Assembly: GCF_008039615.1 (NCBI RefSeq)
Contig: NZ_VDUZ01000006.1
Coordinates: 1-64,000 of the forward strand
Source: Vineibacter terrae
GTDB taxonomy: Bacteria > Pseudomonadota > Alphaproteobacteria > Reyranellales > Reyranellaceae
Length of the DNA: 64,000 bases
Direction of reading: 5' to 3'
Shown here: positions 15,053 through 64,000 of the stretch, piece after piece
How positions within the stretch are numbered: the first letter of the stretch is position 1
Layout of the letters: the number at the start of each line of letters is the position of its first letter
Notes under the pieces: generated by a model
Told to the model about the DNA's origin: nothing
What the model saw: only the letters and a program-made list of their open reading frames with translations
Databases searched by the model: none
Program-made: the position numbers and the translations under genes

Positions 15053-15101
15053 GATGTCAAGTGCCGTTTCCAGTGTGGCCTGGGTGGACGAGGAGGAAGA
15101 C

Positions 15102-16301: not shown

Positions 16302-16308
16302 CGCCGAT

Positions 16309-16339
16309 GGCGGCCCGTTCGCCTGACGGACGGGCCGCC
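16309..16339 (+). terminator. Hairpin after the first amidohydrolase gene
   Basis: Perfect 10-bp arms GGCGGCCCGT and ACGGGCCGCC around an 11-nt loop, starting 8 bp after the stop codon. There is no T-run, so it may be a partial terminator or an mRNA-stability element within the operon. Confidence 0.45.
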
Positions 16340-16453
16340 GATCACCAGAACCGTATGACCGTCATGCGGTACGCGGTTGAGGTTGTGATTGCTTTCCCGC
16401 TTGTCGGGGCGCCTAGTTTTTTGGTGACGCGGAGCTTTGACGGAGCGGGGGCG

Positions 16454-17566: not shown

Positions 17567-17587
17567 TGGCAACCGAGGAGGGATGTG

Positions 17588-35563: not shown

Positions 35564-35607
35564 GGCTAGCCTGGCCGACGAGCCCCAGCGGTGGCCGAAC
35601 GGAATCT

Positions 35608-36876: not shown

Positions 36877-36952
36877 CAGTAGTTTCCAGTTTCTTTTTAT
36901 CTATAGTATAATACTATCGTATCCGATAGGAAAATAGTTCGCCAACAATGGA
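36877..36952. promoter_or_regulatory. AT-rich divergent promoter region
   Basis: The lowest-GC stretch in the window (TTTCTTTTTATC, TATAGTATAATACTATCG) between the divergent glycosyltransferase and double-methyltransferase genes. GTATAATAC is a perfect 9-base inverted repeat resembling a -10 element. No assay or second copy is known. Confidence 0.4.
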
Positions 36953-38611: not shown

Positions 38612-38677
38612 AGCCCCGGTGACGGCCGGACAGTAGCGAGGGCTCTGGCTCCAGATGTTGACAGCAACGGCCCGGTG

Positions 38678-39754
38678 CTACGCCGGATAGACATCTTGCG
38701 CAATGTTCTCCATGTCCACCGGCCAGTCCAGCGTCGTCTCACCAACCTTGCGGAAGATGACGCTCGCCATGAGAGCGGCCGTGTGCTGTTCGCCGAAGCA
38801 GCTGGCGGCGGTGAGGCTGCGTGGCACCACATAGGCCGTGGCACCGTGGACCGCATCGACGATCTCGAACCCGGTAGCGCGATTGAACAGCGCTTTCCAG
38901 GCGTGCCGCGAGAAGCGGAAATAGTCACAAGGCTCCTCGTGCAGGGGCCATGTCTGCGGCGCCACGATAAGGCCCAGGGCACCGACCCGCAGCACGCGGT
39001 TGAGCTCGATGGCAGCCTTCCACGGCATCAGCAAGTGCTCGAACACCGAGAAGGACATGACCGCATCGTAGGCGCCGTGTGGCAGGAAGCGGCTCGCCTG
39101 GTGGGCGTCACCGACGACGTCCACATTGGGGCCATCCATCACGTCAAAGCCGGTGTAGCGCCAGCCCGGTGGCAGCAGGGACGTGTAGGTCGCGCCGGTC
39201 CGGGCACGCGATCCGACCTCGAGCATGTGGCCGGGCGGTCGCTTCGCCAGGTCGGCGAGAAAGCGACTTATCATGCCGCCGGACGCATCGCTGGAGTCCG
39301 AGGCGGCCAAGGGCATCGCCTCGGTCCGGCCATCGGCCAGCGTCACCACCAGGGTCGCTGACAGCACCGCCGCGCCGGCGGCGAGCAGCAGCACTTGGTC
39401 GAAGCGGCATGCAGCCGCTTGTCGGCCATACAGACGCGCCACGTCGGGACTAGGTAGCCCGGCGTTCGGGATCGGGACCATCCCGTGGCCGGGGAGGCCG
39501 ACTGCCATGCTAACGACGCGGCTGGTGCGGCTGAACGCGAAGCCGATGATGTGCAGGGTATTGTGAAAGTAGGAGTAGCGTTCAATGGACCAGACGACAT
39601 CGGTCGTCCATCCTCGCATTTCGGGCGCCGTCGCAGCGCCGCCACATGCTGCTTGCGATAGCAGGGGCGTTGATTCGGACACACACACCGCCAAAGGCAC
39701 CTTCTGGATTCGAGTGGCATGCCCATACCATGGCGAAAGCCGAGGATTGAACAT
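38678..39754 (-). CDS. SAM-dependent methyltransferase
   Basis: 358 residues. A leader of some 160 residues, with no recognised domain and a hydrophobic stretch (LLLAAGAAVLSATLVVTLADG), precedes a methyltransferase-11-like domain: HMLEVGSRARTGATYTSLLP (motif I), VVGDAHQ, YDAVMSFSVFEHLLMPWKAAIELNRVLRVGALGLIVAP. The CDYFRFSRHAWKALF segment is found in glycan methyltransferases. Converges with the double methyltransferase. Start is uncertain because the leader has no homology support; it may begin further inside. Confidence 0.75.
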   Translation of the reverse strand: MFNPRLSPWYGHATRIQKVPLAVCVSESTPLLSQAACGGAATAPEMRGWTTDVVWSIERYSYFHNTLHIIGFAFSRTSRVVSMAVGLPGHGMVPIPNAGLPSPDVARLYGRQAAACRFDQVLLLAAGAAVLSATLVVTLADGRTEAMPLAASDSSDASGGMISRFLADLAKRPPGHMLEVGSRARTGATYTSLLPPGWRYTGFDVMDGPNVDVVGDAHQASRFLPHGAYDAVMSFSVFEHLLMPWKAAIELNRVLRVGALGLIVAPQTWPLHEEPCDYFRFSRHAWKALFNRATGFEIVDAVHGATAYVVPRSLTAASCFGEQHTAALMASVIFRKVGETTLDWPVDMENIAQDVYPA

Positions 39755-40049
39755 GGCTCTTGTTCTTCCGAAGAGAAGCGAGCATCTGCGCTGCTGCTAT
39801 GCTGGCTGCTACCGCTGCTCGGCAGCGAGCCGTTCACAGGCACCCGTGCTGGCCGATCCCGGGCTGCGCTTCCTGTTCTGGAACAGGCTGTATCACGCCG
39901 AGCATCACACATGCCTCGACGTTGAGACATGCGCCGTGAGCGGACCCTGTCATTACAACTAGTTCTTGTTCTCTGAAGAAGAATAGCATATAGATACCCG
40001 AGCTTGCGTACCCGACTCTGAGCCGACGGGCGTTCGAAGACGGATCCGG

Positions 40050-40142
40050 GTTTCTGTCGGTTTCTGTCCGGTTTCTGTCGCTACGTTGGAACGACCCAAG
40101 CCCTTGGGATCATAAGCAAAACGAGTTTCTGTCGTTTCTGTC
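40050..40142. repeat. Cluster of GTTTCTGTC short direct repeats
   Basis: Five exact copies of a 9-mer at spacings of 10, 11, 54 and 9 bp, with extra G or C between copies. Too short and irregular for CRISPR. Could be an array of protein sites or replication-slippage product upstream of hydA. Confidence 0.6.
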
Positions 40143-40172
40143 GTGGAGCGTGACCCGCAATCGGCGTTAAGC

Positions 40173-49215: not shown

Positions 49216-50054
49216 GTTTCCGGCCGGCGATCGCGGAAGAACTGCCAGAGGTTGCGCACCTCGCGCACCATCTCGAGGTCCATGTCGGCGGTGACGAGCT
49301 CGTCCTTGTCGCTGCTGGCCTGGGCGATGATCTCGCCGCGCGGATTGACGAAATAGCTCGAGCCGTAGAACGTGCCGATGTTCCACGGTGCCTCGGTGCC
49401 GATGCGGTTGACCGCGCCGATGTAGCAGCCGTTGGCTACGGCGGCGGCGGGCTGCTCCAGCTCCCACAGATACTGGCTGAGGCCTGCCACCGTGGCGGAC
49501 GGATTGACGATGTACTCGGCGCCGTTCAGCGCCAGAGCCCGCCATCCCTCGGGGAAGTGGCGATCGTAGCAGATGTAGACGCCCAGCTTGCAGTAAGCGG
49601 TCTGGAACACCGGGTAGCTGAGGTTCCCCGGCCGAAAGAAGAACTTTTCGTAGAAGCCGGCCACCTGCGGGATATGCACCTTGCGGTACTTGCCGAGATA
49701 CTTGCCGTCGGCGTCGATCACGGCGGCCGTGTTGTAGTAGACGCCGGTGATCTCCTCCTCATAGATCGGTGCCACGATCACCATGGCATGCTTGCGGGCC
49801 AGCTCCTGCATCAGCGTCACGGTCGGGCCGTCGGGGATCCGCTCGACGGCGGCATACCATTTGCTGTCCTGGCTCGGACAGAAATAGGGCTGGGTGAACA
49901 CCTCCTGCATGCACAGGACCTGCACGCCTTGCCGCGCGGCGGCCTCGATCAACGGCGTGTGCGCCTCGATCATGTGCCTGCGGATGACGGCCGGCTCCAG
50001 GTTGGTGCCGCCTTTGAGCTGCATCTGGATCAGTCCGCCCTTGAGCGTGGTCAT
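49191..50054 (-). CDS. pydC: Beta-ureidopropionase / N-carbamoyl-beta-alanine hydrolase (nitrilase fold)
   Basis: Completes reductive pyrimidine breakdown: N-carbamoyl-beta-alanine to beta-alanine, CO2 and ammonia. 287 residues. Catalytic triad Glu51 (MQEVF), Lys125 (KYRKVHIP) and Cys162 (YICYDRHFPE). The ALNGAEYIVNPSA block and FFRPGNL fit the beta-ureidopropionase subgroup. ATG 50054 is used. It lies beyond rutR on the minus strand and overlaps it, so the two are linked physically. No RutR box is visible upstream. Confidence 0.88.
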   Translation of the reverse strand: MTTLKGGLIQMQLKGGTNLEPAVIRRHMIEAHTPLIEAAARQGVQVLCMQEVFTQPYFCPSQDSKWYAAVERIPDGPTVTLMQELARKHAMVIVAPIYEEEITGVYYNTAAVIDADGKYLGKYRKVHIPQVAGFYEKFFFRPGNLSYPVFQTAYCKLGVYICYDRHFPEGWRALALNGAEYIVNPSATVAGLSQYLWELEQPAAAVANGCYIGAVNRIGTEAPWNIGTFYGSSYFVNPRGEIIAQASSDKDELVTADMDLEMVREVRNLWQFFRDRRPETYGDLLRP

Positions 50055-50153
50055 GGTGCGCTCCCGGCGCCGCGATCGGGCGCCGGTGCATCCTGGCACG
50101 AAATACAGGCGGCAGCGACTGGCGAGGTCAGAGCTGCGGCCGTGGTCGGACCG

Positions 50154-50357
50154 CTACAGGGCGGTGGTGACGGACGAGCCGAAGAGGAAATTGGACACAA
50201 AGCCGACGAGAAGGATGCCGATAGCGATCAACCCGATAAGCGTCGCGTAATCCAGGATGGTTCTCCCCAACGCCGCAATCCGGCGAGAGCGGTCGTTCAT
50301 CTGCCCGGTCGGTTCGGCTGCATGGGCTCGCGCTTCATACATGTCCCGAGGGTTCAT
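50154..50357 (-). CDS. Small single-pass membrane protein
   Basis: 67 residues: a soluble basic N-terminal half (MNPRDMYEARAHAAEPTG, then MNDRSRRIAALG) and one hydrophobic helix (YATLIGLIAIGILLVGFVSN), ending SSVTTAL. ATG 50357 has GGGAGAG eight bases upstream. It resembles Flp-type pilin or small inner-membrane proteins in plan only; no family is recognised. Confidence 0.6.
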   Translation of the reverse strand: MNPRDMYEARAHAAEPTGQMNDRSRRIAALGRTILDYATLIGLIAIGILLVGFVSNFLFGSSVTTAL

Positions 50358-50668
50358 AAAGTCTCTCCCGTCCAGAACCTTGGTGTCGGCTGATGGGCTC
50401 GGCGGCATGCCCGTACTGCATGGGACATGCATCTTGCCGATTTCCCCGACCACGGTACGGCCGGCTGGCAGCTTGCCCCGCGGCGCCGATCCTGCGCGGT
50501 CTTGCTGGACCAATGCCGCAGAACCGGATTGGTTGCCAGCGGTGGGTCCACGAGCCACAAGATTCTTACAGCGAGCAGTCGCCTTTGACGGTAAACTCTT
50601 CACGTGCAACGCAAACACTCCCTCGTTGCACGGGGTGTGCACAGGGAGGCTGCCGACTGGAGCGGCCC
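50358..50668. other. Intergenic gap without clear features
   Basis: About 310 bp between the divergent small membrane protein and the small plus-strand ORF. It presumably holds both promoters; I see a possible TTGACG box near 50583 but no matching second element, and no repeat or RNA gene. Confidence 0.4.
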
Positions 50669-50959
50669 ATGGCGCGAAGCGCTGATGCGCGTACCCTCAA
50701 GCGGATGGTCGAGGATCTCGACGATGCGCTCGAGTTCAACCTTCCTTTCATCGCCACGGCCGAGAGTGACGCTTGGCAGCAGGTGCACGAGCTTTTGCGG
50801 TTGATCGGACATTTTGCCGACGAAGCGCACGCGCCTGACATGGTCTGGCGTGATGCCGAGGCGAGCCTGCAGGAGCTGCACGAAGCGCTGCTGGCTGCAG
50901 TCTCCCGCGGCCGCGACCAAGCGCGGCAGGCGGCTGACCCGGCGCAGCCAGCGAGCTAG
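50669..50959 (+). CDS. Small acidic helical protein of unknown function
   Basis: 96 residues, highly helical and acidic (RMVEDLDDALEFNLPFIATAESDAWQQVHELLRLIGHFADEAH). Start at ATG 50669 with GGAG seven bases upstream. It ends just before the pcp stop, convergent. No family is recognised; it could be a small regulatory or chaperone-like protein, or not be real. Confidence 0.45.
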   Translation: MARSADARTLKRMVEDLDDALEFNLPFIATAESDAWQQVHELLRLIGHFADEAHAPDMVWRDAEASLQELHEALLAAVSRGRDQARQAADPAQPAS

Positions 50960-50966
50960 ACCGCAA

Positions 50967-51617
50967 TCAGTGAAGCGCTCCGGCGGCAAGTTGAATGTCG
51001 TCGCTCACCTCGATGGACGTCTCGATCGCGATGCGCAGCGCTGCGATCAGGGTATCGAGCGCCAGGCTCGGGCTGCCGGGATGGCGGGCCGCCTGCTCCG
51101 GCAGGTAAGGTATGTGGATGAAGCCCGCGCGATGCACACCGCGGTGCGTCGTCTCCGCGAGATGGCGCAGCACATAGAAAGTGTGGTTGCAAACGAATGT
51201 GCCGGCGGTGTTGGACACCTGCGCCGGCAATCCGGCGCGACGCAGGCGCTGCAGGATCGCCTTTACGGGCAGCGTGGTGAAATAGGCCGCGGGCGCGCCG
51301 GCCACGACCGGCCGGTCGATGGGTTGCGCACCATCATTGTCGGCAATCCGCGCGTCGTCGACATTGATGGCGATGCGTTCCAGCGACACGTCGACCCGGC
51401 CTCCGGCTTGGCCGACGCAGATCACGATTTCCGGTGCAAGCGCCGTCAGCTCGTGGTCGAGGGCGTCGCGGACGGCACCGAAGGCACAAGGCAGCCGGCG
51501 CGCCACGACGGCATGTGATCCGCTGCGCCATCCGTCCAGCCGGCGCGCGACCTCCCAGGCCGGATTGATGCTCTCGCCGTCGAACGGCTCGAAGCCCGTG
51601 ACCAGAACCCGCTTCAC
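50967..51617 (-). CDS. pcp: Pyroglutamyl-peptidase I
   Basis: Removes N-terminal pyroglutamate from peptides. 216 residues if GTG 51617 is used, giving VKRVLVTGFEPFDGE, the family start; ATG 51671 would add 18 residues and has no support. Catalytic triad Glu80 (VSLERIAIN), Cys143 (NTAGTFVCN) and His168 (GFIHIP). Divergent from a gamma-glutamyltransferase gene: both deal with glutamyl-derived peptides, which may be meaningful. Confidence 0.9.
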   Translation of the reverse strand: MKRVLVTGFEPFDGESINPAWEVARRLDGWRSGSHAVVARRLPCAFGAVRDALDHELTALAPEIVICVGQAGGRVDVSLERIAINVDDARIADNDGAQPIDRPVVAGAPAAYFTTLPVKAILQRLRRAGLPAQVSNTAGTFVCNHTFYVLRHLAETTHRGVHRAGFIHIPYLPEQAARHPGSPSLALDTLIAALRIAIETSIEVSDDIQLAAGALH

Positions 51618-51763
51618 GCCCCGCAGCCTCCATGCTTGTGGCCGACCGTCGCGCCACGAACGGGAGCGCATCGTAGACCCGTCCTGCCCCGGGCTGTACG
51701 ATTTTGTCGGTTCATGGCGCCGTTCGCCGAGAAGCCCCAGGACGACAGAGGAACACCCGAGAA

Positions 51764-53380
51764 ATGATCCAGCGTAAGCAAGCGATGATCGTGGCGCCGC
51801 AGCCCGAGGCGGCCGAGGCGGGGGCCGAGATGCTCAAGGCCGGTGGCAATGCCGTCGACGCCGGCATTGCCTGCGCCCTGGTGCAGGGCGTGGTCGACCC
51901 GATGATGTGCGGGATCGCGGGCTTCGGCAGCTGCGGCATCTACATGCCGGCAAAGAAGTTTCATGGCTATATCGATGCGCACGCCCCGGCGCCGTTGGCG
52001 GCGCGGCCCGAGATGTGGGCCAACCTGATCGAGAGCGAGGCGCGCGACGGCTACGGCTTCATCTTGAAAGGCCGGGTCAACGATATCGGCTATCGCTCGA
52101 TTTGCGCGCCGGCGAACCTGCGCATGTACTACGCCGCTCAGCGTGCGCATGGCGCGCTGCCATGGGCGCAGGTGGTGGAGCCGGCCATCCACTGGGCGGA
52201 GCATGGCTGGACCGTGCGGCCACACGTGCATTTCTGGTGGGCCGATGAAGGCGCCATGGGGCGCGCGCCCAATCACGAGCGTCTGCGCTTCACGCCGGCC
52301 GCGCGCCGCCTCTACTGCCGCGACGACGGCTCACCCAAGCGCGTGGGCGATACGGTGATCAACCGTGACTATGCCGCCGTGCTGCGCCGGATCGCCGAAG
52401 GCGGCGCCGATGTCTTCTATGAAGGTGAGATTGCCCACGCCATCGCCGATGATATGAAACGGCATGATGGCCTGATCTCGCTGGACGACCTCAGGCAGTG
52501 GCAGCCGGCCCACAATGCGCCGCTCTGGGGCTCCTATCGCGACTGGCGGGTGTCGAGCAACCCGCCGCCGGGCGGCGGCGTGATGCTGATCCAGATGCTG
52601 AACATCCTGGAGCATTTCGATCTCGCTGCGCTGGAGCATAATTCGGTCGAATACGTCCGGGTGGTGGCCGAGGCCATGAAGCGGGCCACGATCGACAAGG
52701 ACCTGCATGTCGGCGATCCGAAGTTCGTCGATGTGCCGGTCGCCCGGCTCATCTCGAAAGACTATGCGCGCGAATCGGCCGACGAGATCCGGCGTGGGGT
52801 CAAGGCGAGCGTGCCGCGTTTCAACGCCGGCACGCCGACCAAGGACACCACGCATATCTCGGCGATCGACAAGGACGGCAACTGCTTCACGATGACCCAT
52901 TCGCTGGGCATGCCCTCGGGAGTCATCACCGATGGCCTGGGCTTCATGTACAACGGCTGCATGGGCGTCTTCGATCCGCGGCCGGGGCGCGCCGGCAGCA
53001 TCGCGCCGGGCAAGGCGCGCTTCAGCTCCGTGGTGCCGTCGATCGTGTTCAAGGGCGACAAGCCGGAGCTGATCATCGGTGCGCCGGGCGCAACGCAGAT
53101 CGCCATGGGTGTCCTGCACGTGGTGTTGAACGCGCTCGACCATCGCATGACCATGGTCGAGGCGGTGTCGGCGGCGCGCTTCTCGGCGACGAGCGATGCC
53201 ATCGATATCGCCAACCGGATCCCCTGGAGCACGGAGCGGGAGCTGCAGGGCCTGGGGTACGAGGTGGTGCGCAGCCCCTATACGTTCGGCTTTGCCGCCG
53301 TCCATGCCATTCGGGTCCATCCCGAGGGCCTCGATGGTGGGGCTGATCCGGGCCATGACGGGATCGCGCTCGCCGTGTGA
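51764..53380 (+). CDS. ggt: Gamma-glutamyltransferase family Ntn hydrolase
   Basis: 538 residues. The auto-cleavage nucleophile is Thr362 in DTTHISAIDKDGN, with PPPGGG, SIAPGKARFSSVVPSIVF and GAPGATQIAMGV further along, as in GGT. No clear signal peptide, which differs from periplasmic E. coli Ggt, so this member may act in the cytoplasm on other gamma-glutamyl or related amides. ATG 51764 follows GAGGA. Adjacent to pcp and a MATE exporter. Confidence 0.88.
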   Translation: MIQRKQAMIVAPQPEAAEAGAEMLKAGGNAVDAGIACALVQGVVDPMMCGIAGFGSCGIYMPAKKFHGYIDAHAPAPLAARPEMWANLIESEARDGYGFILKGRVNDIGYRSICAPANLRMYYAAQRAHGALPWAQVVEPAIHWAEHGWTVRPHVHFWWADEGAMGRAPNHERLRFTPAARRLYCRDDGSPKRVGDTVINRDYAAVLRRIAEGGADVFYEGEIAHAIADDMKRHDGLISLDDLRQWQPAHNAPLWGSYRDWRVSSNPPPGGGVMLIQMLNILEHFDLAALEHNSVEYVRVVAEAMKRATIDKDLHVGDPKFVDVPVARLISKDYARESADEIRRGVKASVPRFNAGTPTKDTTHISAIDKDGNCFTMTHSLGMPSGVITDGLGFMYNGCMGVFDPRPGRAGSIAPGKARFSSVVPSIVFKGDKPELIIGAPGATQIAMGVLHVVLNALDHRMTMVEAVSAARFSATSDAIDIANRIPWSTERELQGLGYEVVRSPYTFGFAAVHAIRVHPEGLDGGADPGHDGIALAV

Positions 53381-53405
53381 CGGCAGCGCGCCGTGAGGGC
53401 GGCGG

Positions 53406-54842
53406 TTACTTCGCGGTAGCCGTCGATACCTGGGCTACCGTGGGTGGTGCTGCGCGACCGGCTGGCTCGGGCGCACGCCACGGCGTGAAGACGAGCGCGG
53501 CACCAGCCAGCAAGCCGTAGGCTATCATGGCTGCCGCGATGACCCAGCACAGCATTGTGTAGTCACCACCCCACCGGATCACCAGGGTGGCGCCCACCAG
53601 CACCAGGACCAGCCGCGCCGTGGCCGCCAGCACCGGCTCGATGACGCGGCCGGAGCCCTGGGTGGCGAAGTACAGGCAGATGCCGAAACCGAACAGCGCG
53701 AAGGTCGGCCCGACCCGCTGCAGATAGGTCGCCGTGGCCTCGCGCAGCAGCGGGTCGGCGGTGTAGAGGCCGCTCCACCATTGCGGCATCACCGCGAAGA
53801 CGGTGCCAATGATGCCCGAGATCGCCGCCGCGGCCAGCGCGCCGACAAGCGTTATCCGGCGCGCCCGGGCGATCTGGCCGGCGCCGAAATTCATGCCCAC
53901 CATCGGGACAAGCGCCGCGCCAATGCCGAACACGATCGAGATCTGCAGCATCTCCAGCCGCGCGCCGATGCCGTAGCCGGCGACCGCCGCGGCGCCGAAG
54001 CCACCGATGACGCCCGACAGCACCATCACCGCGAAGGCATTCTGCAGGGAGAAGAAGATCGCCACGCCACCCACGCGCAGGATGTCGCGGAACATAGGCC
54101 ATGACGGCCGCACGCCGGCGACGGCGGGCCGCACGCGGGATTGCGGCGAGAAGAGAAATGCGAGCGTCGTTGCGGCGCCGAGGCCGTTGGCCAGGATGGT
54201 CGACCAGCCGATCCCGGCGATGCCGGCCGAGGGGAGGGGACCGACTCCTTGCGTCAGGGCATAGCCCAGCGTCATCTGCACGCCGGCGGTTGCCAGCAGG
54301 ATCGCTGTCGGCATCGCCATGTTGCCGGTGCCACGCACGATGCTCAGCAAGGTGTTGGCCAGCCAGATCGTCGTGACTCCGGCGAACAGCGTATCAGAAT
54401 AGCGCAGCGCCAGATCGAGCACGGTGCCGCGTGCACCCATCGCGCCGTAGATCGCCGGACCGAAGCCGCGCATCAGCAGTGTGAACAGCAGCCCGAAGCC
54501 GATGGCGATCAGCGTCGCATGCAGGACCAGCGCGCGTGCGCGCGCCAGGTCGCCGGCGCCCAGGGCACGCGCCACCGACGACGACACGCCCCCGCCCATG
54601 GCGCCGGTCGACATGGTCTGCATCAGCACGAGGAACGGAAAGACATAGGCATTCGCGGCCAGGGCCTGAGGCCCGAGCGTGCCGACGAACACCGTCTCGA
54701 CCACGATCACCAGGCTCTGGACGATGACGGTGAAGGCGTTGGGCGCCGCCAGCCGCAGGATCGTCGGCAGGATCGGACCGGTCAGGATCGCCTGTTCGCG
54801 GGCGGTGCGCGTAGGAAGCGACGACAAGCTGGATCCTCGCAA
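53406..54842 (-). CDS. MATE family efflux transporter
   Basis: 478 residues, about 12 membrane helices arranged as two similar halves. LTGPILPTILRLAAPNAFTVIVQSLVIVVETVFVGTLG opens the first MatE domain in pieces; the second begins near residue 255 (FRDILRVGGVAIFFSLQNAF). Exports cationic or other drugs using Na+ or H+. Converges with the ggt gene, separated by 25 bp. Substrate unknown. Confidence 0.92.
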   Translation of the reverse strand: MRGSSLSSLPTRTAREQAILTGPILPTILRLAAPNAFTVIVQSLVIVVETVFVGTLGPQALAANAYVFPFLVLMQTMSTGAMGGGVSSSVARALGAGDLARARALVLHATLIAIGFGLLFTLLMRGFGPAIYGAMGARGTVLDLALRYSDTLFAGVTTIWLANTLLSIVRGTGNMAMPTAILLATAGVQMTLGYALTQGVGPLPSAGIAGIGWSTILANGLGAATTLAFLFSPQSRVRPAVAGVRPSWPMFRDILRVGGVAIFFSLQNAFAVMVLSGVIGGFGAAAVAGYGIGARLEMLQISIVFGIGAALVPMVGMNFGAGQIARARRITLVGALAAAAISGIIGTVFAVMPQWWSGLYTADPLLREATATYLQRVGPTFALFGFGICLYFATQGSGRVIEPVLAATARLVLVLVGATLVIRWGGDYTMLCWVIAAAMIAYGLLAGAALVFTPWRAPEPAGRAAPPTVAQVSTATAK

Positions 54843-54990
54843 TCGGGTCGCGTGTAACTACACGTATCTACGGGCCGCGACACCAGAGAATGGCAGTCCG
54901 CATGATAAATTTTCCTCATGGATCTGAGGCTGTGCCGCTGCACGGGACCCAGGCTTGACAGCGCGGGTGTCGGCGGAAACTGTGCGTCTC

Positions 54991-56100
54991 ATGAATATCG
55001 ACGGCAAAGCATACCGCACGATCTGGCTCGCCGATGATGGCCGCTCCGTCGAGGTGATCGACCAGACACGCCTGCCGCATGCGTTTGCCGTCCGCCGCCT
55101 GGCCACACTGCCGCAGGCGGCCGACGCCATCCGCACCATGGTGGTGCGCGGGGCGCCATTGATCGGCGCCACCGGCGCTTACGGCCTGGCGTTGGCGATG
55201 GCGGAGGACCCGACCGACGCCATGCTGGATCGTGCTTACGCGATCCTGCTGCAGACCCGGCCCACGGCGGTCAACCTGCGCTGGGCGTTGGATGATCTGC
55301 GCGACCGGCTGCGGCAATTGCCGCCGGACAAGCGACGTGCAGCGGCCTTTGCCCGCGCTGCTGCGATCTGCGATGAGGACGTCGCGATCTGCCGCGCGAT
55401 CGGCGACAATGGGCTGCGCTTGATCAGGGACATCGCGGCGCGAAAGCCGGGCGGCGCGCGGATCAATGCGCTCACCCATTGCAACGCCGGCTGGCTGGCC
55501 ACGGTCGACTGGGGCACGGCGTTGGCACCGATCTATCGGGCGCATGACGAGGGCACCCCGATTCATGTGTGGGTCGATGAGACCCGGCCGCGCAATCAGG
55601 GCGCGAGCCTGACCGCATTCGAGCTCGGCCGGCACGGCGTGCCGCACACCGTGATCGCCGACAATGTCGGTGGCCACCTGATGCAGCATGGCATGGTCGA
55701 TTTCTGCATCGTCGGCACCGACCGCACGACGCGGCGCGGCGATGTCTGCAACAAGATCGGCACCTACCTGAAAGCGCTGGCGGCGCACGACAATGGCGTG
55801 CCGTTCTACGTGGCGCTGCCCTATCCCACGATCGACTGGGCGCTCAGCGATGGTGTGCGCGAAATCCCGATCGAGCAGCGCGATGGCCGTGAAGTCTCGC
55901 ATATCACAGGCCGCACCGAATCAGGCGCCTGTGCCGAGGTGGCGCTGGTGCCCGACGGCAGCGACGTTGCAAACTATGCTTTCGATGTCACGCCGGCGCG
56001 GCTGGTCACCGCCCTGATCACCGAGCGCGGTGTCTGCCCGGCGAGCGAGGCGGGGCTGTTGTCGCTCTACCCGGAACGGCGCACCCGTCATTCGGCGTGA
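54991..56100 (+). CDS. mtnA: S-methyl-5-thioribose-1-phosphate isomerase
   Basis: Turns methylthioribose 1-phosphate (or 5-deoxyribose 1-phosphate) into the ribulose form in methylthioadenosine salvage. 369 residues. [32 protein letters not shown], catalytic Cys164 (LTHCNAG) and Asp244 ([19 protein letters not shown]) match MtnA. ATG 54991 gives the family start. No mtnK, mtnP or mtnB lies in the window, but a class II aldolase 4.5 kb on could complete a DHAP-type shunt. Confidence 0.93.
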
Positions 56101-56310
56101 TCGCCACGGCGATGGCGCCACAACTCCCGCTGGCAGCGCTGGCTCTGATTTGATACGGTTCTTCCGTTTGGGGTGAAAGGCCACTCAATCGCACGTGGCC
56201 GCTGTTGGGTTTCTAGCTTTGGCATCATCAGGATTGCTTGCCGCGAGACTGCGCGGGATGAGCAATCTCGTCACAGTCACGGGCAGGCAACGGATCCGGA
56301 GGTCTGTGTC

Positions 56311-57250
56311 ATGCCTAGCGAAACGGTAAACTCAGGTGGTATGGCCGGCAGCGTCGCCGAGGCTCGGCTGGACGAGCAATCGCTCCACGCCGTGCCGAAC
56401 CCGCTGCCCTTGACGCTGGCCGGCATGCTGGCGGCCGTCGGGCCGCAGGCCATCAACTTCGGCATCTCGATCGGCGGCGGCGAGGCCTATCTGCTGCCGA
56501 ACGTCGCCGCTCGCGGCACCTTGCACATGCACTGGCTGATGACGCTTTCGGTGATCCTCGAGACCGCGCTGGTCTATGAGTGCGTCAAGTACAGCATCTG
56601 CACGGGCCGGTCCTTCTTCGCCGCCACCAACGACCTAAGCCGTACGGGTTCTGGCCGGTGTTCTGGGCCGTCGTGACCATCCTGACCTGGGCGTGGCCAG
56701 CCTGGATGGGCGGCGCGATTATCGCTGCGGAGCGCTTCACCGGCATCGGCAATCCGCCCATCTGGGGCCTGCCGTGCAGGTTCCCCTTCAGATGGCCACC
56801 GTCGCCCAGGGCGTGCTTGGGCCGACGGCGGGATGGCTGATGCTGCTGGTCATCATGGTGACGCTCTATGATGCCCAGTTCCCCTTCTATGACACCTACA
56901 TCGGACGCACGACCTGCGACGCGATCGCGGTCACTGGAAGGGCACGGCGATCCTACCGCTTCTACTACTTCCTCGTTGTCACGATAGCGGTCGTGGCCGG
57001 CCTCTACCTCGTCACCGTCGCGCAGCCCTTCGTCCTCTGGATCGGCGTCGCCATCTCCGCCCTGGTCTATCGATCGATCGGAGCCTGGCAGATCCTGCTG
57101 CTGAACAACCGGAGACTCCCTGAAGGGTTCAAGGTCAGTCGCCTCAACACGTGGCTGCTCTGGATCACCGTGGTCACCGGCTTCGGTGGCGTCGGGCTCT
57201 GGGCCGTTTTCGTGCTTCCGGGCGAAATTGCCAAGCGGTTCGGGACTTGA
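56311..57250 (+). pseudogene. Decayed Nramp-like divalent-metal or related transporter
   Basis: Three reading-frame pieces of one transporter. First, from ATG 56311: PNPLPLTLAGMLAAVGPQA, SIGGGEAYLLPNV and ECVKYSICTGRSFFAATNDL. Then a shift near 56640 to PYGFWPVFWAVVTILTWAWP. Then a shift and apparent internal loss near 56770-56790, leading to QMATVAQGVLGPTAGWLM and NNRRLPEGFKVSRLNTWLLW. The total is far shorter than an 11-helix Nramp protein. The family call rests on the GGGEA and EYARY-like helices and is moderate. It is best read as a pseudogene, though sequence errors could add to it. Confidence 0.65.
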
Positions 57251-57332
57251 TCGGCGCGCACCGTCCAAAGGTGATCGAAGGGTTCGCCACGCTGCTGGCG
57301 GCCAATGATCGGCTCGCGGCGTCGTCGTATGT

Positions 57333-57351
57333 TATTTTGCTTTGCGAAATA
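57333..57351. promoter_or_regulatory. Inverted repeat before the TRAP transporter genes
   Basis: TATTTTGC-TTT-GCGAAATA, 8-bp arms with one mismatch, in an AT-richer spot about 100 bp before the binding-protein start. Looks like an operator for an IclR- or GntR-type regulator, none of which is adjacent. Confidence 0.4.
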
Positions 57352-57449
57352 AAGGATAGTCGATCCGACAGCCAAGCCGGCGAAGCAAGCCGGCGCGGGC
57401 AGGCAGTCGTCAGTACCGGCCCGCCGAGAGCAGGGAAGGGAGGCGACTC

Positions 57450-58497
57450 ATGTTCAAGCTCTTGACGGCGGCCTTCCTGGCCGCAACCGCCATATCTTTC
57501 GGTGTGCCGCCGGCGACCGCGCAGGACAAGATCCGCTGGAAGATGCAGAGCGCGTTCGGCAGCCAGCTGCCGCATCTGGGCCCGCCGGCCATACGCTTCA
57601 CCAAGGACATCGAGGTGATGTCTGCCGGCAAATTCGAGATCAAATTCTACGAGCCCGGCGCGCTGGTGCCGCCGCTGGAAAGGCTCGATCGAGTCATGCT
57701 GGACCACGCCAGGCTACCATACCGGCAAGTATCCAGCGCTTGCCTTCTTCACCACCGTGCCGTTCGGGCCGGGGATCGGCGAGTTCCTGGCGTGGAAGTG
57801 GCACGGCGGCGGCAACAAGCTGCGTGACGAGATCTACGCCCAGCATGGCCTGAAGGCGTTTGACTGCTTCTGCATCGGCCCCGAGACGTCGGGCTGGTTC
57901 CGCAAGGAGGTCAAGGGCATTGAGGACATGAAGGGCATCAAGATGCGCTTCTTCGGGCTCGGCGCGCGGGTGATGGAGAAGATGGGTGTGTCGACCCAGC
58001 TGCTGGCGGCGGCCGACATCTTCCCGGCGCTGGAGCGCGGCGTGATCGACGCCACCGAGTTCTCGATGCCGACGATGGACATCCAGCTCGGCTTCCACCA
58101 GATCGCGAAGTACAACTACTTCCCGGGCTGGCACCAGCAGGTGTCGTGCAGCGAGTTCCTGATGAACGCCAAGGCGTTCGATGCGCTGCCCGCACACTAC
58201 AAGGCGATGATCGAGGTTGCAGCGCAGGCGCAGGTGATCTTCACGTATGCCGAGACCGAGGCGTCGCAATTCGGTCCGATGCAGGAGATGCAGGCCAAGC
58301 ACGGCGTGCAGATTCGTCGCTGGAGCGACAAGGATCTGGCAGCGTATGAGAAGGCTTGGCTCGAGGTGATCGCCGAGGATTCAGCCAAGGATCCACTGTT
58401 CAAGAAGATCGCCGATCACTACCTGGACTTCCGCAAGAAGTACGCCGTGTGGGGCGAGTCGCAGACGATGAAGGCGACCTACCTCAACAGCAAGTAA
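57450..58497 (+). pseudogene. TRAP transporter binding protein (DctP type), frameshifted
   Basis: The first part (57450 to about 57705) has a signal peptide (MFKLLTAAFLAATAISFG to ATA) and IRWKMQSAFGSQLPHLGPPA, ending with EPGALVPPLE. The frame is then lost. From about 57708 another frame reads WTTPGYHTGKYPALAFFTTVPFGPGIGEF and continues to the end (FFGLGARVMEKMGVSTQLLAAADIFPALERGVIDATEF in pieces). About 7 residues normally present between LEVFD and WTTPGY are missing, so a small deletion broke the frame. Without repair the protein would be truncated. Confidence 0.8.
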
Positions 58498-58520
58498 CGG
58501 CACGCCACGGCATGGTGACG

Positions 58521-58551
58521 GCCGGGCATCGATAAACAACCGATGCCCGGC
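58521..58551 (+). promoter_or_regulatory. Hairpin between TRAP binding-protein and small permease genes
   Basis: Perfect 11-bp arms GCCGGGCATCG and CGATGCCCGGC about a 9-nt AT-rich loop. Such hairpins after TRAP binding-protein genes usually raise their mRNA level over the permease message. Confidence 0.6.
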
Positions 58552-58637
58552 AGCTCGTTTGCGGATTGAGGTGCACGCGAACGGATCTACCGACTTCCGG
58601 ACGCGTCCGCCTGCGCTGCCTGACGGGGGTCGACGCC

Positions 58638-59198
58638 ATGAAGACAGTGCTTGCGATCGCCGAGGCCATCCGCCGGACGCTCGAGTGGATTGCCTTTGCG
58701 TCGGGCTGGCTGATGGTGATCATGGCCACCGTCATCACCTTCGACGTTCTGGCGCGCAAGGCAGGCCTGGAGCTCCCTTACACCAAGCTGCAGGAGCTCG
58801 AATGGCATTTCCATGCCGCCATCTTCTCGCTGTGGATGGGCTATTGCTATACAATCAACGCCCATCCCCGCGTCGATTCACTCACCGAGCACCTCAGCCT
58901 GCGCCGCAAGGCCTGGATCGAGCTGGCCGGCTGCGTGCTGTTCGCGATGCCGTACGTCATGCTTGTGTCCTGGTACAGCCTCGACTTCGTGGCCCAGTCG
59001 TATCGGTTGAATGAGATGTCCGACGCCGCGGTCGGGCTCACGCATCGCTGGGTGCTCAAGGGTATCTATGCCGCCGGCTTGTGGATGGTGGTGGCCGGCA
59101 TCCTGAGCGTGCTGCTCCGCGTGATCGCCTTCCTGTTCGGCGGTCGGCCGCAGGAAGAGGTCAATCTGCAAATCGGCCATACGGTCGCGGAAGTTTAG
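58638..59198 (+). CDS. TRAP transporter small permease (DctQ type)
   Basis: 186 residues with four membrane helices: WIAFASGWLMVIMATVITFDVLARK, LEWHFHAAIFSLWMGYCYTI, the FAMPYVMLVSWY helix and the last VVAGILSVLLRVIAFLF. RVDSLTEHLSLRRKAWIEL is the usual loop. Intact, unlike its two partner genes. ATG 58638. It forms the membrane complex with DctM; 10 bp separate them. Confidence 0.88.
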   Translation: MKTVLAIAEAIRRTLEWIAFASGWLMVIMATVITFDVLARKAGLELPYTKLQELEWHFHAAIFSLWMGYCYTINAHPRVDSLTEHLSLRRKAWIELAGCVLFAMPYVMLVSWYSLDFVAQSYRLNEMSDAAVGLTHRWVLKGIYAAGLWMVVAGILSVLLRVIAFLFGGRPQEEVNLQIGHTVAEV

Positions 59199-59208
59199 GG
59201 GGGCTGCC

Positions 59209-60599
59209 GTGCTCGATTGGCTCGCCGACAACCTCGCCTTGATCATGTTCGTGGCGATGTTTTTCGTCATCTTCTGCGGCTACTCCGTGGGTTACGTGAT
59301 GGGGGGATGGCGCTGGTCTTTGCCGTGCTGGGTTCGTGGCTGGGGGTGTTCAGGCTCATCAGCCTGTCTGACGTCGTTCTGCGCATGTGGGGTCAGGTGG
59401 CGATAGACCCGGTATTGGCCTCGGTCCCGATGTTCATCTTCATGGGGTCGATTCTCGAACGGTCGGGATCGGCCAAAGCGATGCTGGATGCAACCGAGGT
59501 GATGCTGAAGCGGGTTCCGGGGGCGCTGGCCGTGGCCGTGATGGCGATGGGCACCATCCTCGCCGCACCGATCGGCGTGGTCGGTGCTGCCGTGGTCACG
59601 CTCTCGGTGATCGCGCTGCCGCAGATGCTTAAAGCGGGCTACGACAAGCGGCTTGCGATTGGCACCATTGCCTCGGCCGGCACCTTGGGCATCCTTATCC
59701 CGCCGGCAATCATGCTGGTGGTCATGGCCGACATGCTAGGCACGTCGGCCGGCTATCTGTTCCTGTCGTCGATCATGCCGGGCTTCCTGCTCTCGGGCCT
59801 CTACATGCTTTACATCCTGGGCGTCGCCGTTCTGCGTCCGGGCGCGGCGCCCAAGCTGACGGCGGAATACGGGCCGCAGAGCCGCAGAGAATTCTGGTGG
59901 ACGCTCTGGCGCGGAATGTTCCCGATGACGGCGCTGATGGTGATCGTGCTCGGCTCGATCTTCGCCGGCTGGGCGACGCCCACCGAGAGTGGCGGTGTCG
60001 GCGTGCTGGGCTCGATGCTGATCGCGGCCCTGAACAATCGTCTGAACATCAAGATGCTGAACGAGGCCATCCGCTCGGCCTGTCGTGCCAATGGCCTGGT
60101 GTTCATGATCTTCCTTGGCGCGACCGGATTCTCCCTGGTCTTCCGGCTGTTAGGCGGCGACGAACTGATGATCTCGACCCTGTTGGGCCTGGGAGTTGAC
60201 ACCAAGTGGGAGATGCTCATCTTCGTGATGATCCTGATCTTCCTACTGGGCTTTCCCTTCGAGTGGATCGAGATTTGCCTGATCGTGCTGCCGATCTTCG
60301 GGCCGATCCTGGCCAAGTATGACTTTTCCGACCATCTTGGTGCCGGTGCGGGCCAGGCGCATCTGCTGACCTGGTTCGGGACGATCGTCGCGGTCAACCT
60401 GCAGACCGCGTTCATGACTCCGCCTTTCGGCGCCACGCTGTTCTACATGAAGGGCACGGCGCCGCCCGGAGTCACCATGAATGACGTGTACCGCGGCATG
60501 TACCCCTTCGTCGCCCTGCAGGTTGTCGGGCTGCTGCTTTGCATCTACTACCCCAGCATCAGTCTGTGGCTCCCCAGGCTGGCCGGCTTCCTTGACTAG
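59209..60599 (+). pseudogene. TRAP transporter large permease (DctM type), single frameshift
   Basis: From GTG 59209: LADNLALIMFVAMFFVIFCG and GYSVGYVMGG, after which the frame breaks at a run of six G (59300-59310). Adding one G gives GGMALVFAVLGSWLGVF and an unbroken frame to the stop at 60599, with all the expected TRAP membrane helices (MFIFMGSILERSG, GTLGILIPPAIMLV, MTPPFGATLFYMKG). A single-base loss in a G tract can be a real mutation or a sequence error. If an error, the transporter is complete apart from the binding protein. Confidence 0.8.
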
Positions 60600-60650
60600 G
60601 GCCGTGTGCTGCGGCAGGGGAGGGGTGGTTCCCCCTCCCGAGTGCCGGGT

Positions 60651-61373
60651 ATGACGAAGGCAAAACAACCCGTTGCGGCAAGGCCCACCGAAGCCACGCT
60701 GCGTCGTGCCTTGATCGGTACCTGTCGCCGGATGAATGCCCTGGGCATCAACCAGGGAACGTCGGGGAACGCCAGCGTACGGATCGGTCGCGACCGGTTC
60801 CTCATCACACCCAGTGGCGTGTCGTATGACGCCATGCTGCCGGCGCAGATCCCGACCATGACCTTGAGCGGGCGCTGGTACGGCGCGCGACGGCCGTCGT
60901 CGGAATGGCGCTTTCACCGCGACATCCTCGCAGCACGGGCTGACGCGGGTGCGGTGATCCATACGCATGGGCCGCTGGCCACGACCTTGGCGGTGCTGCG
61001 TCGCGATATCCCGCCTTTCCACTACATGGTGGCGGTGGCGGGCGGCGACTCGATCCGCTGCGCGCCTTACGCCACTTTCGGCACCCAGGCGCTGAGTGAC
61101 TTGGCGCTGGCGGCGCTCGCGGGCCGCCGCGCTTGCCTGCTGGCCAATCACGGGCTGATCGCCATCGGCGCCACGCTCGAAAAGGCGCTGGCGCTGGCGG
61201 TCGAGGTCGAGGCGCTGGCGGGCATGTACCTGCGCGCCTGCGCCATCGGCGAGCCGGCGCTGCTGTCGGCGGCGCAGATGGCCGAGGCCTTGGCGTTGTT
61301 CCGTACCTACGGCACGCCGGATTTTCCGGACGCCGATCTGGTCCATGCCGGGACACGCCTGCCACGTGGGTAG
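60651..61373 (+). CDS. Class II aldolase (Ald2/FucA-like)
   Basis: 240 residues. TSGNASVR, LITPSGVSYD, the catalytic Glu85 in SSEWRFH, zinc ligands His104 and His106 (HTHG) and His167 (NHGLIAIG): all as in L-fuculose-1-phosphate aldolase. Splits a ketose 1-phosphate into DHAP and an aldehyde. Near mtnA, it could take methylthioribulose 1-phosphate (as Ald2 of Rhodospirillum and E. coli). ATG 60651. It directly follows the TRAP genes, perhaps sharing their transcript. Confidence 0.88.
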   Translation: MTKAKQPVAARPTEATLRRALIGTCRRMNALGINQGTSGNASVRIGRDRFLITPSGVSYDAMLPAQIPTMTLSGRWYGARRPSSEWRFHRDILAARADAGAVIHTHGPLATTLAVLRRDIPPFHYMVAVAGGDSIRCAPYATFGTQALSDLALAALAGRRACLLANHGLIAIGATLEKALALAVEVEALAGMYLRACAIGEPALLSAAQMAEALALFRTYGTPDFPDADLVHAGTRLPRG

Positions 61374-61440
61374 CCGGCGCCCAGGGGACAGTGTCCGAAA
61401 ACCGCGAGACGGCGGCGGGGCGGCGGAGGATGATGGTTTC

Positions 61441-62949
61441 ATGGACCTCGATCATGACGCCTGCTACCGCGCCATCCAGACGCGCGATGCCCGCTTTGAC
61501 GGACGCCTGTTTGTCGCCGTCAAGACGACCGGGATCTACTGCCGGCCGATCTGTCCGGCGCGCACGCCCAAGCGCGAGAACGTCCTGTTCTTTTCAACCG
61601 CCACGGCTGCGCAGGGAGCGGGCTTCAGGCCCTGTCTGCGTTGTCGGCCGGAAACCTCGCCCGATCTTGCTGCCTGGCGCGGCACGTCCAACACTGTCTC
61701 GCGGGCGCTGGCGCTGATCGAAAGCGGCGCGCTGGATGCCGCCGACGTCGAGGCGCTGGCCGATCGCCTGGGGGTCGGCGAGCGTCAGCTGCGGCGGCTC
61801 TTCCGCCAGCACCTTGGCGCCTCGCCGGTCGCGGTGGCGCAGACACGGCGCGTGCTGCTGGCCAAGCAGCTGATCCACGACACGCAGCTGTCGATGGCCC
61901 ATGTTGCCTTGGCGGCCGGGTTCGGCAGCGTGCGCCGCTTCAACGAGACCTTCCAGCAGCTCTTCGACCGGCCGCCGATCGCTCTGCGGCGAAGCCGGGC
62001 GACGCAAGCGGTGAGCACCGGCGGCGGGGCTGTGTCCGTGACGCTGGCCTATCGGCCGCCTTACGACTGGAGCGCGATGCTGACGTTCCTGGCGGCGCGC
62101 GCGATCCCCGGTGTGGAGGTCGTCTCGGGCGACCGCTACGCGCGCACGATCGCGATCGGCGACGGCAAGGGCACGCTCATGGTCGAGCCCACCGCCAATG
62201 CACGCGTCAAGGCGACCGTCCGCTTCCCGCATTTGCGCGCGCTGCCGACGATCATCGCCCGCGTGCGGCGCGTGTTCGACCTGGCGGCCGATCCTGTCGC
62301 GATCGGTGCCCATCTGGCGCAGGATCCCACCTTGGCGCCGCTGGTCGCCGCACGCCCGGGACTGCGTGTGCCCGGCGCCTGGGATGGCTTCGAGCTCGCC
62401 GTGCGCGCTGTCCTGGGTCAGCAGATCACGGTCGCAGCGGCGACCGGGCTCGCCGGCAAGCTGGTACGAGCCCATGGCGAGGCGCTGCCATCGCCGGACG
62501 GTGCGATGCCGGGCTTGACGCACGTGTTTCCCGCGCCCGGGACGCTGGCGGCGGCGGATGTCGCCGCGCTGGGCATGCCGGGCGCACGTGCCGCAGCGCT
62601 GCGGTCGCTGGCCGCGGCGGTGGTGGCGGATCCGCTGATCTTCGGTCCGCGGCGCAGCCTTGACGAGGCGATCGCCCGCCTGCAGTCGTTGGCCGGCGTC
62701 GGTGAGTGGACGGCGCAATACATCGCCATGCGCGAGCTGCGCGAGCCCGATGCCTTTCCGGCCAGCGACATCGGCCTGCTGCGTGCCATGGCTGACGGCG
62801 CCGGAGCGCGGCCGTCGCCGGCGCAGCTGCTGGCCCGCGCCGAGGCGTGGCGGCCGTGGCGCGCCTATGCAGCGCTGCATCTGTGGGCCGCCGATGCCCG
62901 GAATGCGATCATCGACAGGGAGACAACCGATGCCCGCCGCGCCGCCTGA
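61441..62949 (+). CDS. Ada N-terminus fused to AlkA: methyl-phosphotriester sensor and 3-methyladenine glycosylase
   Basis: 502 residues in three parts. The Ada zinc domain has Cys34, Cys38, Cys65, Cys68 (GIYCRPICPAR, PCLRCRPE), one of which takes a methyl from DNA phosphotriesters. An AraC-type helix-turn-helix follows (about 95-185). The AlkA half (about 200-502) has the helix-hairpin-helix LQSLAGVGEWTAQYIAMRELREPD and the catalytic Asp in FPASDIGLLRAM. It so joins adaptive-response control and base excision in one protein. ATG 61441. It overlaps ogt by 20 bp. Confidence 0.93.
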   Translation: MDLDHDACYRAIQTRDARFDGRLFVAVKTTGIYCRPICPARTPKRENVLFFSTATAAQGAGFRPCLRCRPETSPDLAAWRGTSNTVSRALALIESGALDAADVEALADRLGVGERQLRRLFRQHLGASPVAVAQTRRVLLAKQLIHDTQLSMAHVALAAGFGSVRRFNETFQQLFDRPPIALRRSRATQAVSTGGGAVSVTLAYRPPYDWSAMLTFLAARAIPGVEVVSGDRYARTIAIGDGKGTLMVEPTANARVKATVRFPHLRALPTIIARVRRVFDLAADPVAIGAHLAQDPTLAPLVAARPGLRVPGAWDGFELAVRAVLGQQITVAAATGLAGKLVRAHGEALPSPDGAMPGLTHVFPAPGTLAAADVAALGMPGARAAALRSLAAAVVADPLIFGPRRSLDEAIARLQSLAGVGEWTAQYIAMRELREPDAFPASDIGLLRAMADGAGARPSPAQLLARAEAWRPWRAYAALHLWAADARNAIIDRETTDARRAA

Positions 62950-63484
62950 CCGCTTTCGCCTCGACCGCCTCAAGACGCCGATCGGCGAGGCGCTGCTCGT
63001 CACCGACGGCGATGGGCATCTGCGCATGCTCGACTGGAGCGATTTCGAAACACGCCTGGAGCGGTTGCTGCGCCGGCAATACGGCGCCGTCGACCTCATG
63101 CCCGGCCGTGCACCGGCCGACATGCGCCATGCGCTGGACAGCTACTTTTCCGGCGATCTTGCGCAGCTTCGCGCTATCAGCTGGCGCACTGCCGGCACGC
63201 CGTTCCAGCGCAAGGTGTGGAAGGCGCTGTGCAGCATCCCGGCTGGCGAGACGTTGAGCTACGGGGCGCTTGCGGCCAGGCTTGGTATTCCGCGTGCCAT
63301 GCGCGCCGTTGGCCTTGCCAACGGAGCCAATCCGATCAGCGTGGTTGTGCCTTGCCATCGGGTGATCGGCTCCGATGGTTCGCTGACCGGCTACGGCGGC
63401 GGCCTCGACCGCAAGCGCTGGCTGCTGACGCACGAGGGCGCTGCGTTTCGCGACAAGCCGCAGCCGGGAGCGCTGGCGGCGTAG
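62930..63484 (+). CDS. ogt: Methylated-DNA-[protein]-cysteine S-methyltransferase
   Basis: 184 residues. Acceptor Cys142 in VVPCHRVIGSDG, with FQRKVWKALCSIPAGETLSYG before it and GYGGGLDRKRWLLTHE after it. Repairs O6-methylguanine by suicide methyl transfer. The start lies within the last 20 bp of the Ada-AlkA gene, so they are translationally linked and together cover phosphotriester, N3 and O6 lesions. Followed by a strong hairpin. Confidence 0.95.
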   Translation: MPAAPPDRFRLDRLKTPIGEALLVTDGDGHLRMLDWSDFETRLERLLRRQYGAVDLMPGRAPADMRHALDSYFSGDLAQLRAISWRTAGTPFQRKVWKALCSIPAGETLSYGALAARLGIPRAMRAVGLANGANPISVVVPCHRVIGSDGSLTGYGGGLDRKRWLLTHEGAAFRDKPQPGALAA

Positions 63485-63486
63485 AA

Positions 63487-63517
63487 TGCAAGCGCGAGCT
63501 TCTGGCTCGCGCTTGCA
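63487..63517. terminator. Bidirectional hairpin between ogt and the GNAT gene
   Basis: Perfect 13-bp arms TGCAAGCGCGAGC and GCTCGCGCTTGCA with a 5-nt loop, placed exactly between two convergent stop codons (63484 and 63520). The best terminator-like structure in the window, though it has no U-tract on either side. Confidence 0.7.
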
Positions 63518-63519
63518 GG

Positions 63520-64000
63520 TCAGAAACGCACCAGACCCCAGTCGTCGATCGGCTCGAAGCCGAGCGCACGATAGGCGCGCTGTGCTGCGTTGTTGCTCAC
63601 GTCGGTGAACAGCACGGCGCGGTCGGCGCCGGCCTGCCGCGCCCGCAGCAGGCTGCCGGCGACCGCCACGCGTGCGAAGCCGCGGGCGCGGCCGAATGGT
63701 GGCGTGTAGACGCCGCCGACCTGCACCACGTCGGGCAGCGCCGCGTTGAAGCCCGTGAAGGCGACCGGCCGGCCCTGGGCTTCGACCACCCAGGCACGGC
63801 CTTCAGCGTGCAGCGCCGCGACATCCTGCGCCGCGACATCCCAGGTCGTGGCCGTGCGCGGCAGGTCGAACATCTCGACGAGGTATTCCACGCGCCACGC
63901 TGCCAGCAGAGGCAGATCGTCGTCGCCCATGCTGCGCACCGTGATGTCACCGGCCGACAGGGCCTGTGGCACGACCAGCTCGGTGAGCGGCAGCGCGAAC
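63520..64000 (-). CDS. GNAT family N-acetyltransferase (5' end outside window)
   Basis: The visible part has about 159 residues and reads through the window edge with no start there (the frame continues as FALPLTELVVPQALSAG). A GNAT domain fills most of it: QVGGVYTPPFGRARGFARVAV (acetyl-CoA loop), then LFTDVSNNAAQRAYRALGFEPIDDW (the C-terminal signature). A GTG at 63972 could be an internal start, but the open frame before it suggests a longer protein, perhaps with a second domain. Substrate unknown. Confidence 0.75.
   Translation of the reverse strand, partial: FALPLTELVVPQALSAGDITVRSMGDDDLPLLAAWRVEYLVEMFDLPRTATTWDVAAQDVAALHAEGRAWVVEAQGRPVAFTGFNAALPDVVQVGGVYTPPFGRARGFARVAVAGSLLRARQAGADRAVLFTDVSNNAAQRAYRALGFEPIDDWGLVRF

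Follow-up and report, generated by a model that had tools for sequence, protein, structure and literature searches.

Results

A run of broken transport genes between two intact metabolic genes

We analysed a stretch of 64,000 nucleotides from the alphaproteobacterium Vineibacter terrae (contig NZ_VDUZ01000006.1, positions 1 to 64,000; hereafter the window), in which four transport genes separate mtnA from a class II aldolase gene. All six genes run head to tail on the + strand. The left flank, mtnA (54955..56100, with an alternative start at 54991 also possible), encodes S-methyl-5-thioribose-1-phosphate isomerase and matched TIGR00512 with 409.5 bits against a cut-off of 279. The right flank (60651..61373) carries the aldolase domain PF00596; its best NCBIfam matches were to L-fuculose-phosphate and ribulose-1-phosphate aldolase models, under their cut-offs, as was the case for the 25 listed of its 27 NCBIfam model matches. 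Between them follow an Nramp-like pseudogene (56311..57250) and the genes of a tripartite ATP-independent periplasmic (TRAP) transporter: a pseudogene of the solute-binding protein, dctP (57450..58497), the small permease gene dctQ (58638..59198) and a pseudogene of the large permease, dctM (59209..60599). Three of the four are broken. As the original prediction had claimed, dctQ and the flanking genes are intact, dctQ forming one open frame with 34.1 bits to the Pfam DctQ family (PF04290) against a cut-off of 28.3. The three lesions it had named, with their positions, were likewise borne out by the homologue alignments and reading frames described below.

The Nramp-like gene had been predicted to carry at least two frame shifts and an internal loss, and it is indeed spread over three successive frames, with about 180 residues estimated to be missing. 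Its N-terminal piece (56311-56637) resembles Nramp divalent metal transporters in matching the start of the NCBIfam model Nramp_1 (NF037982), at positions 1-64 of 404 only (the match ends at model position 64 or 68, depending on the search). It differs from them in that the piece scored 29.4 bits where the curated cut-off for the whole model is 50, the later pieces sit in two other frames and the middle is apparently lost. On a profile built from two distant relatives the three pieces fell at positions 99-197, 209-232 and 493-536 of 596. The match of the third piece was not significant (E 0.24), and the number of missing residues is therefore an estimate only. Homologues with an open frame were all distant, and every non-self match of the pieces had 26-30% identity. 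The C-terminal piece found its own genome alone among 61 genomes, with no match in the 60 relatives, and its own genome plus one weak match among 385 genomes of the class; it had no match in the 30 genomes behind the DctP loci or on the plasmids and viral contigs searched. The N-terminal piece gave its own genome and three weak matches among 398 genomes of the phylum, two weak matches among 295 genomes of the family of G782, and none on plasmids. Next to two of the distant Nramp-like relatives (L107 and L108) lies what its translation, judged by eye, suggests is a HemN-like radical SAM protein.

The lesions in dctP and dctM were located by aligning homologues that cover both parts of the gene in a single frame, eight for dctP and seven for dctM. 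All eight DctP homologues aligned in two frames. The upstream piece ends at 57695 and begins at 57510 or 57513 in seven of the eight (57381 in L030), while the downstream piece, which carries PF03480, runs from 57679 to 58482-58494. The coordinates of these two-frame alignments give a net shortfall of about 20 nt at 57678-57681, in agreement with the small deletion that had been proposed. For dctM, all seven homologues placed the main match, which carries PF06808, at 59307-60596; in each case a further piece, upstream and out of frame with it, ends at 59307-59319. The gene is thus one nucleotide short at a run of six G (59301-59306), and the predicted loss of one G in a G tract stands. A related dctM in Bradyrhizobium valentinum (L038:6651-7927) is also split across two frames, near 7320-7370; this is either a second, independent break in the same permease or an error there.

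A TRAP system requires its secreted binding protein. Here the body of DctP and its N-terminal signal region lie in different frames, and the locus most likely has no transport function. Of the three proteins that make up a functional system, only the small permease is intact. The DctP body (246 aa) is like the binding proteins of keto-acid-type TRAP systems, its nearest relatives of solved structure including 2hzk (E 1.3e-44) and 7ug8 ("Ketoacid-binding protein", E 3.8e-39). The record name of 2hzk is sorbitol/mannitol SmoM; we take it to be the keto-acid protein TakP. The likeness concerns the sequence of the binding protein alone, and this locus differs from such systems in that both dctP and dctM are broken. 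Neighbouring genes pointed to no common substrate in the 10 proteins scanned at four loci of related operons. Nor was the transporter linked elsewhere to the metabolic pair, no mtnA or aldolase match being listed for loci L007-L059, whose flanks span at most 6 kb and often far less.

The four genes form one lineage-specific insertion

We compared the window with its relatives, as the original prediction had suggested, and found an empty mtnA/aldolase site in a genome of the same genus (G002). The first 77.7 kb of the contig (C6) are collinear with about 29.0-108.5 kb of G002:C17, with several gaps and with DNA identities of about 76-88% in matched pieces longer than 300 nt. One of these gaps is exactly the transport genes. 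G002 passes straight from mtnA to the aldolase gene, the two reading frames overlapping by 4 nt, and the window holds about 4.55 kb more. Both flanking genes are 89% identical to their G002 counterparts. The DNA alignment skips from 56075 to 60700, which places the left edge of the inserted block at about 56076-56101 and the right edge at about 60650-60700 (block 56101..60650, + strand). Because G002 joins mtnA and the aldolase gene directly, the four genes count as a single insertion specific to this lineage.

The block was absent from the mtnA/aldolase site in three genomes of the same genus, one of which (G003) had no aldolase gene that we found beside mtnA. More widely, mtnA was matched in 40 of 61 genomes, and 14 of these loci were fetched with their flanks. 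The aldolase gene follows mtnA in five of the 14 (L090 and others; two from the same genus and three from another) and was not found in the other nine, and in none of the 14 does an Nramp or TRAP gene lie between mtnA and an aldolase gene. Among the five (L090, L091, L097, L098 and L099), L098 does have a TRAP permease match, about 11 kb from its aldolase gene.

The decay is local

To set the broken genes against their background, we took the open frames of G002 as a control and compared them with positions 1-85000 of C6, obtaining 54 conserved matches over 53.4 kb. The strict control is limited to genes with 72% identity or more to G002; faster-evolving and window-specific genes, such as those at 35.6-39.8 kb, fall outside it. 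One of the 54 matches had an extra out-of-frame piece. This piece falls within the adjacent gene, for a carbon-nitrogen hydrolase, so it is most likely a shadow frame. A looser filter flagged four of the 54, namely the same match and three at or past the right end of the window. In all four, one piece was 81-89% identical in one frame and the rest was 52-70% identical, or 79% over 24 residues that were already covered. One of them (64429-65239), when re-examined, contained an intact frame of 114 aa (64901-65245), with an extension of low conservation upstream of it.

With one control match in 54 flagged, and that one probably falsely, three broken genes out of four in the block exceed the background. 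If none of the 53 control genes that remain after removal of the strictly flagged one is taken to be broken, the chance that three breaks would all hit the four block genes is 1.4e-4. The claim that the decay is local therefore holds against G002 for the genes that the control covers. The earlier reading of the sequence missed the reason for this clustering: the damaged genes share one insertion, so that their origin, not chance, explains it.

The TRAP operon combines two lineages

The DctM of the block is 81-82% identical to the proteins of seven Bradyrhizobium loci and 77-79% identical to those of four others, including one metagenome-assembled genome (MAG) of Reyranella (78%). Its DctQ, among the loci fetched, is 72-74% identical to the same seven and 73% identical to the Reyranella MAG. 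The DctM tree places the window immediately outside a group that holds Bradyrhizobium and assorted MAGs, among them that of Reyranella. On plasmids, neither the DctP body nor DctM had a match at 60% identity or more.

DctQ and DctM belong with operons of the gene order P-Q-M. DctP groups with three other loci, L027-L029, with support of 99/97 in a reduced tree of 21 rows and 87/93 in a tree of 33 rows; the operons of these loci have the order P-M-Q, and their DctM is just 46-47% identical to that of the window. Constraining the window's DctP into the P-Q-M group was rejected by the approximately unbiased (AU) test, with p 3.7e-5, or 0.029 when L041 was allowed into the group. These p-values are to be read as indicative, because the identities were already known when the group was picked. 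Judged by these trees, the operon is a mosaic, with a binding protein of one TRAP lineage and a permease of another. In L041 itself a P-Q-M-like DctP stands beside a DctM that shares 45% identity with that of the window, so the window is probably not the only case of such re-pairing. A gene conversion within dctP, whose middle is closer to L027-L029 than its left end is, was considered and is not claimed, the ends holding few informative sites.

Viewed across loci, one family of TRAP binding proteins occurs with two very different permease types and gene orders (window 57450-60599; L027-L030, L032, L034, L039 and L041), and a single MAG carries both kinds of operon (L027 and L039).

Selection and the age of the breaks

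None of the eight gene pieces contains an in-frame stop. We also compared the ratio of nonsynonymous to synonymous differences (pN/pS) between the window and homologues with that among the homologues themselves. The medians were close for dctM (0.239, against 0.204 among homologues) and for dctP (0.367, against 0.357), and dctP showed no excess of private changes (2 of 124 sites). Taken together, the absence of stops and these near-homologue ratios make the breaks look recent, and indicate that selection acted on the genes through most of their past and that they were broken late.

Discussion

The findings are best explained, in our view with good confidence, by a block of about 4.55 kb that was acquired, inserted between two metabolic genes and is now decaying, that is, by a failed horizontal transfer of a well-known kind. 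The comparisons above show that the block is inserted when set against relatives, that frames are broken and that both flanks are intact; we infer the arrival by transfer, the absence of benefit, the succession of events and the loss of transport. An Nramp-like gene and a dctP-dctQ-dctM operon would have entered an ancestral mtnA-aldolase pair in the same direction, would have conferred no lasting advantage, and would since have been undergoing loss through insertions and deletions: the Nramp-like gene would have lost a large internal part and shifted frame twice, dctP would have lost about 20 nt, and dctM would have slipped by one nucleotide in its G run. As a TRAP system cannot work without its secreted binding protein, dctQ would be the intact leftover of a dead system. 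Excerpts of the survey by Liu et al. (2004, PMC522871) describe failed horizontal transfers in which acquired genes are disabled by frameshifts, give putative transfers as 19.9% of pseudogenes compared with 8.6% of genes, and place transporter families among the top pseudogene families. Our case is like those in having acquired genes broken by frameshifts; it differs from the survey, as excerpted, in being a single case and in that insertion was recognised from collinearity with a relative and not from base composition. Literature searches on Reyranella pseudogenes and on TRAP transporter pseudogenes returned no title concerning this locus.

Several observations weigh against this explanation. 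The GC content of the block (0.630) lies within the range of the flanks (mean 0.674, sd 0.018, minimum 0.621), and its GC at third codon positions (GC3) is similar to theirs. No direct repeat of at least 9 nt is common to 56001-56320 and 60591-60800, no mobile-element gene was recognised at the block, and no second strain carrying the block was found. The whole Nramp_1 model has matches in 33 of the 61 genomes, this one included (the broken piece being its sole match), and related DctP genes also occur in relatives; since relatives hold other members of both, the gene families themselves are not foreign. The median pN/pS of dctQ (0.374) is above that among homologues (0.278), and private changes were highest in the window both for dctM (26 of 318 sites; next 12 of 304) and for dctQ (18 of 116; next 9 of 107), an excess that may reflect a longer branch or some earlier relaxation. 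The block was nonetheless probably acquired from elsewhere, with horizontal transfer as the likeliest source.

The similar GC3 would also suit a block that had long been native to the locus, was lost independently in relatives and is now decaying here, as would the related dctPQM operon in the Reyranella MAG (L034). We regard this as very unlikely, given that mtnA and the aldolase gene adjoin without the block in two genomes of the same genus and three of another, that no mtnA or aldolase match is listed in the 8.2 kb of L034, and that the C-terminal Nramp-like piece went unmatched in the relatives searched. Sequencing or assembly error would have to account for some or all of the lesions, which is unlikely; such an error is possible chiefly for dctM, where a single nucleotide is at issue at a six-G run, a classic error site. 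The shortfall in dctP and the apparent large loss in the middle of the Nramp-like gene, in contrast, are not typical base-call errors, the same contig shows one doubtful break among the 54 conserved matches over 85 kb, and the gene around another six-G run, at 8600, aligns in a single frame with its G002 counterpart, across residues 18-804 of 804.

It is harder still to credit, and in our estimate extremely improbable, that the TRAP system works, with slippage at the G run or a start at 59307 yielding DctM and with a binding protein encoded at another place in the genome. Identity reaches no more than 37% for another DctP among the genome's listed matches and 39% for another DctM; beginning at 59307 would cost dctM its first 33 codons, and six G are short for phase variation, which counts against a dctM read by slippage. 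In favour of a working system are an intact dctQ, a dctM open from 59307 and a genome with 22 DctM and 18 DctP matches, this locus included.

The locus offers one clean example in which an insertion can be set beside the unoccupied site of a relative and several kinds of damage, and in which the binding protein and the permease of one TRAP locus have different histories. It changes no general view; such decay is an ordinary fate of acquired genes. One speculative and unlikely extension is that the hybrid operon was lost fast because the borrowed binding protein and the permease were mismatched, which would make it a natural failed part-swap. The insertion also splits what is likely a pair of genes for 5'-deoxynucleoside salvage. 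Excerpts of PMC10986504 describe a dihydroxyacetone phosphate (DHAP) shunt made up of mtnA, ald2 and a kinase or phosphorylase. The flanking pair resembles the mtnA and ald2 components of that system, as far as the excerpts describe it, in joining MtnA with a class II aldolase in adjacent genes in relatives; it is unlike it in being split here by the insertion and in an aldolase that stays under the listed model cut-offs.

Other features of the window

A search for RNA families within 50000-64000 found none; a promoter scan returned 0 sites with 0.9 expected and a terminator scan 4 with 2.7 expected. A tRNA-Asp call of 91 nt at 61230-61320 was taken as probably false because it sits inside the aldolase reading frame. 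Elsewhere, 15147-16285 and 17.6-18.8 kb match the same stretch of G002, and the amidohydrolase gene (15054-16298) seems to be duplicated (15054-18781). The region 35600-40150 has no collinear match in G002 and holds rhamnan-synthesis-like (RgpF) and methyltransferase-like proteins, possibly a surface-polysaccharide cassette. The stretch 61345-62949 contains a fusion of Ada-type metal-binding, AraC-type and AlkA glycosylase parts, followed by a frame that, by eye, is methylguanine methyltransferase-like.

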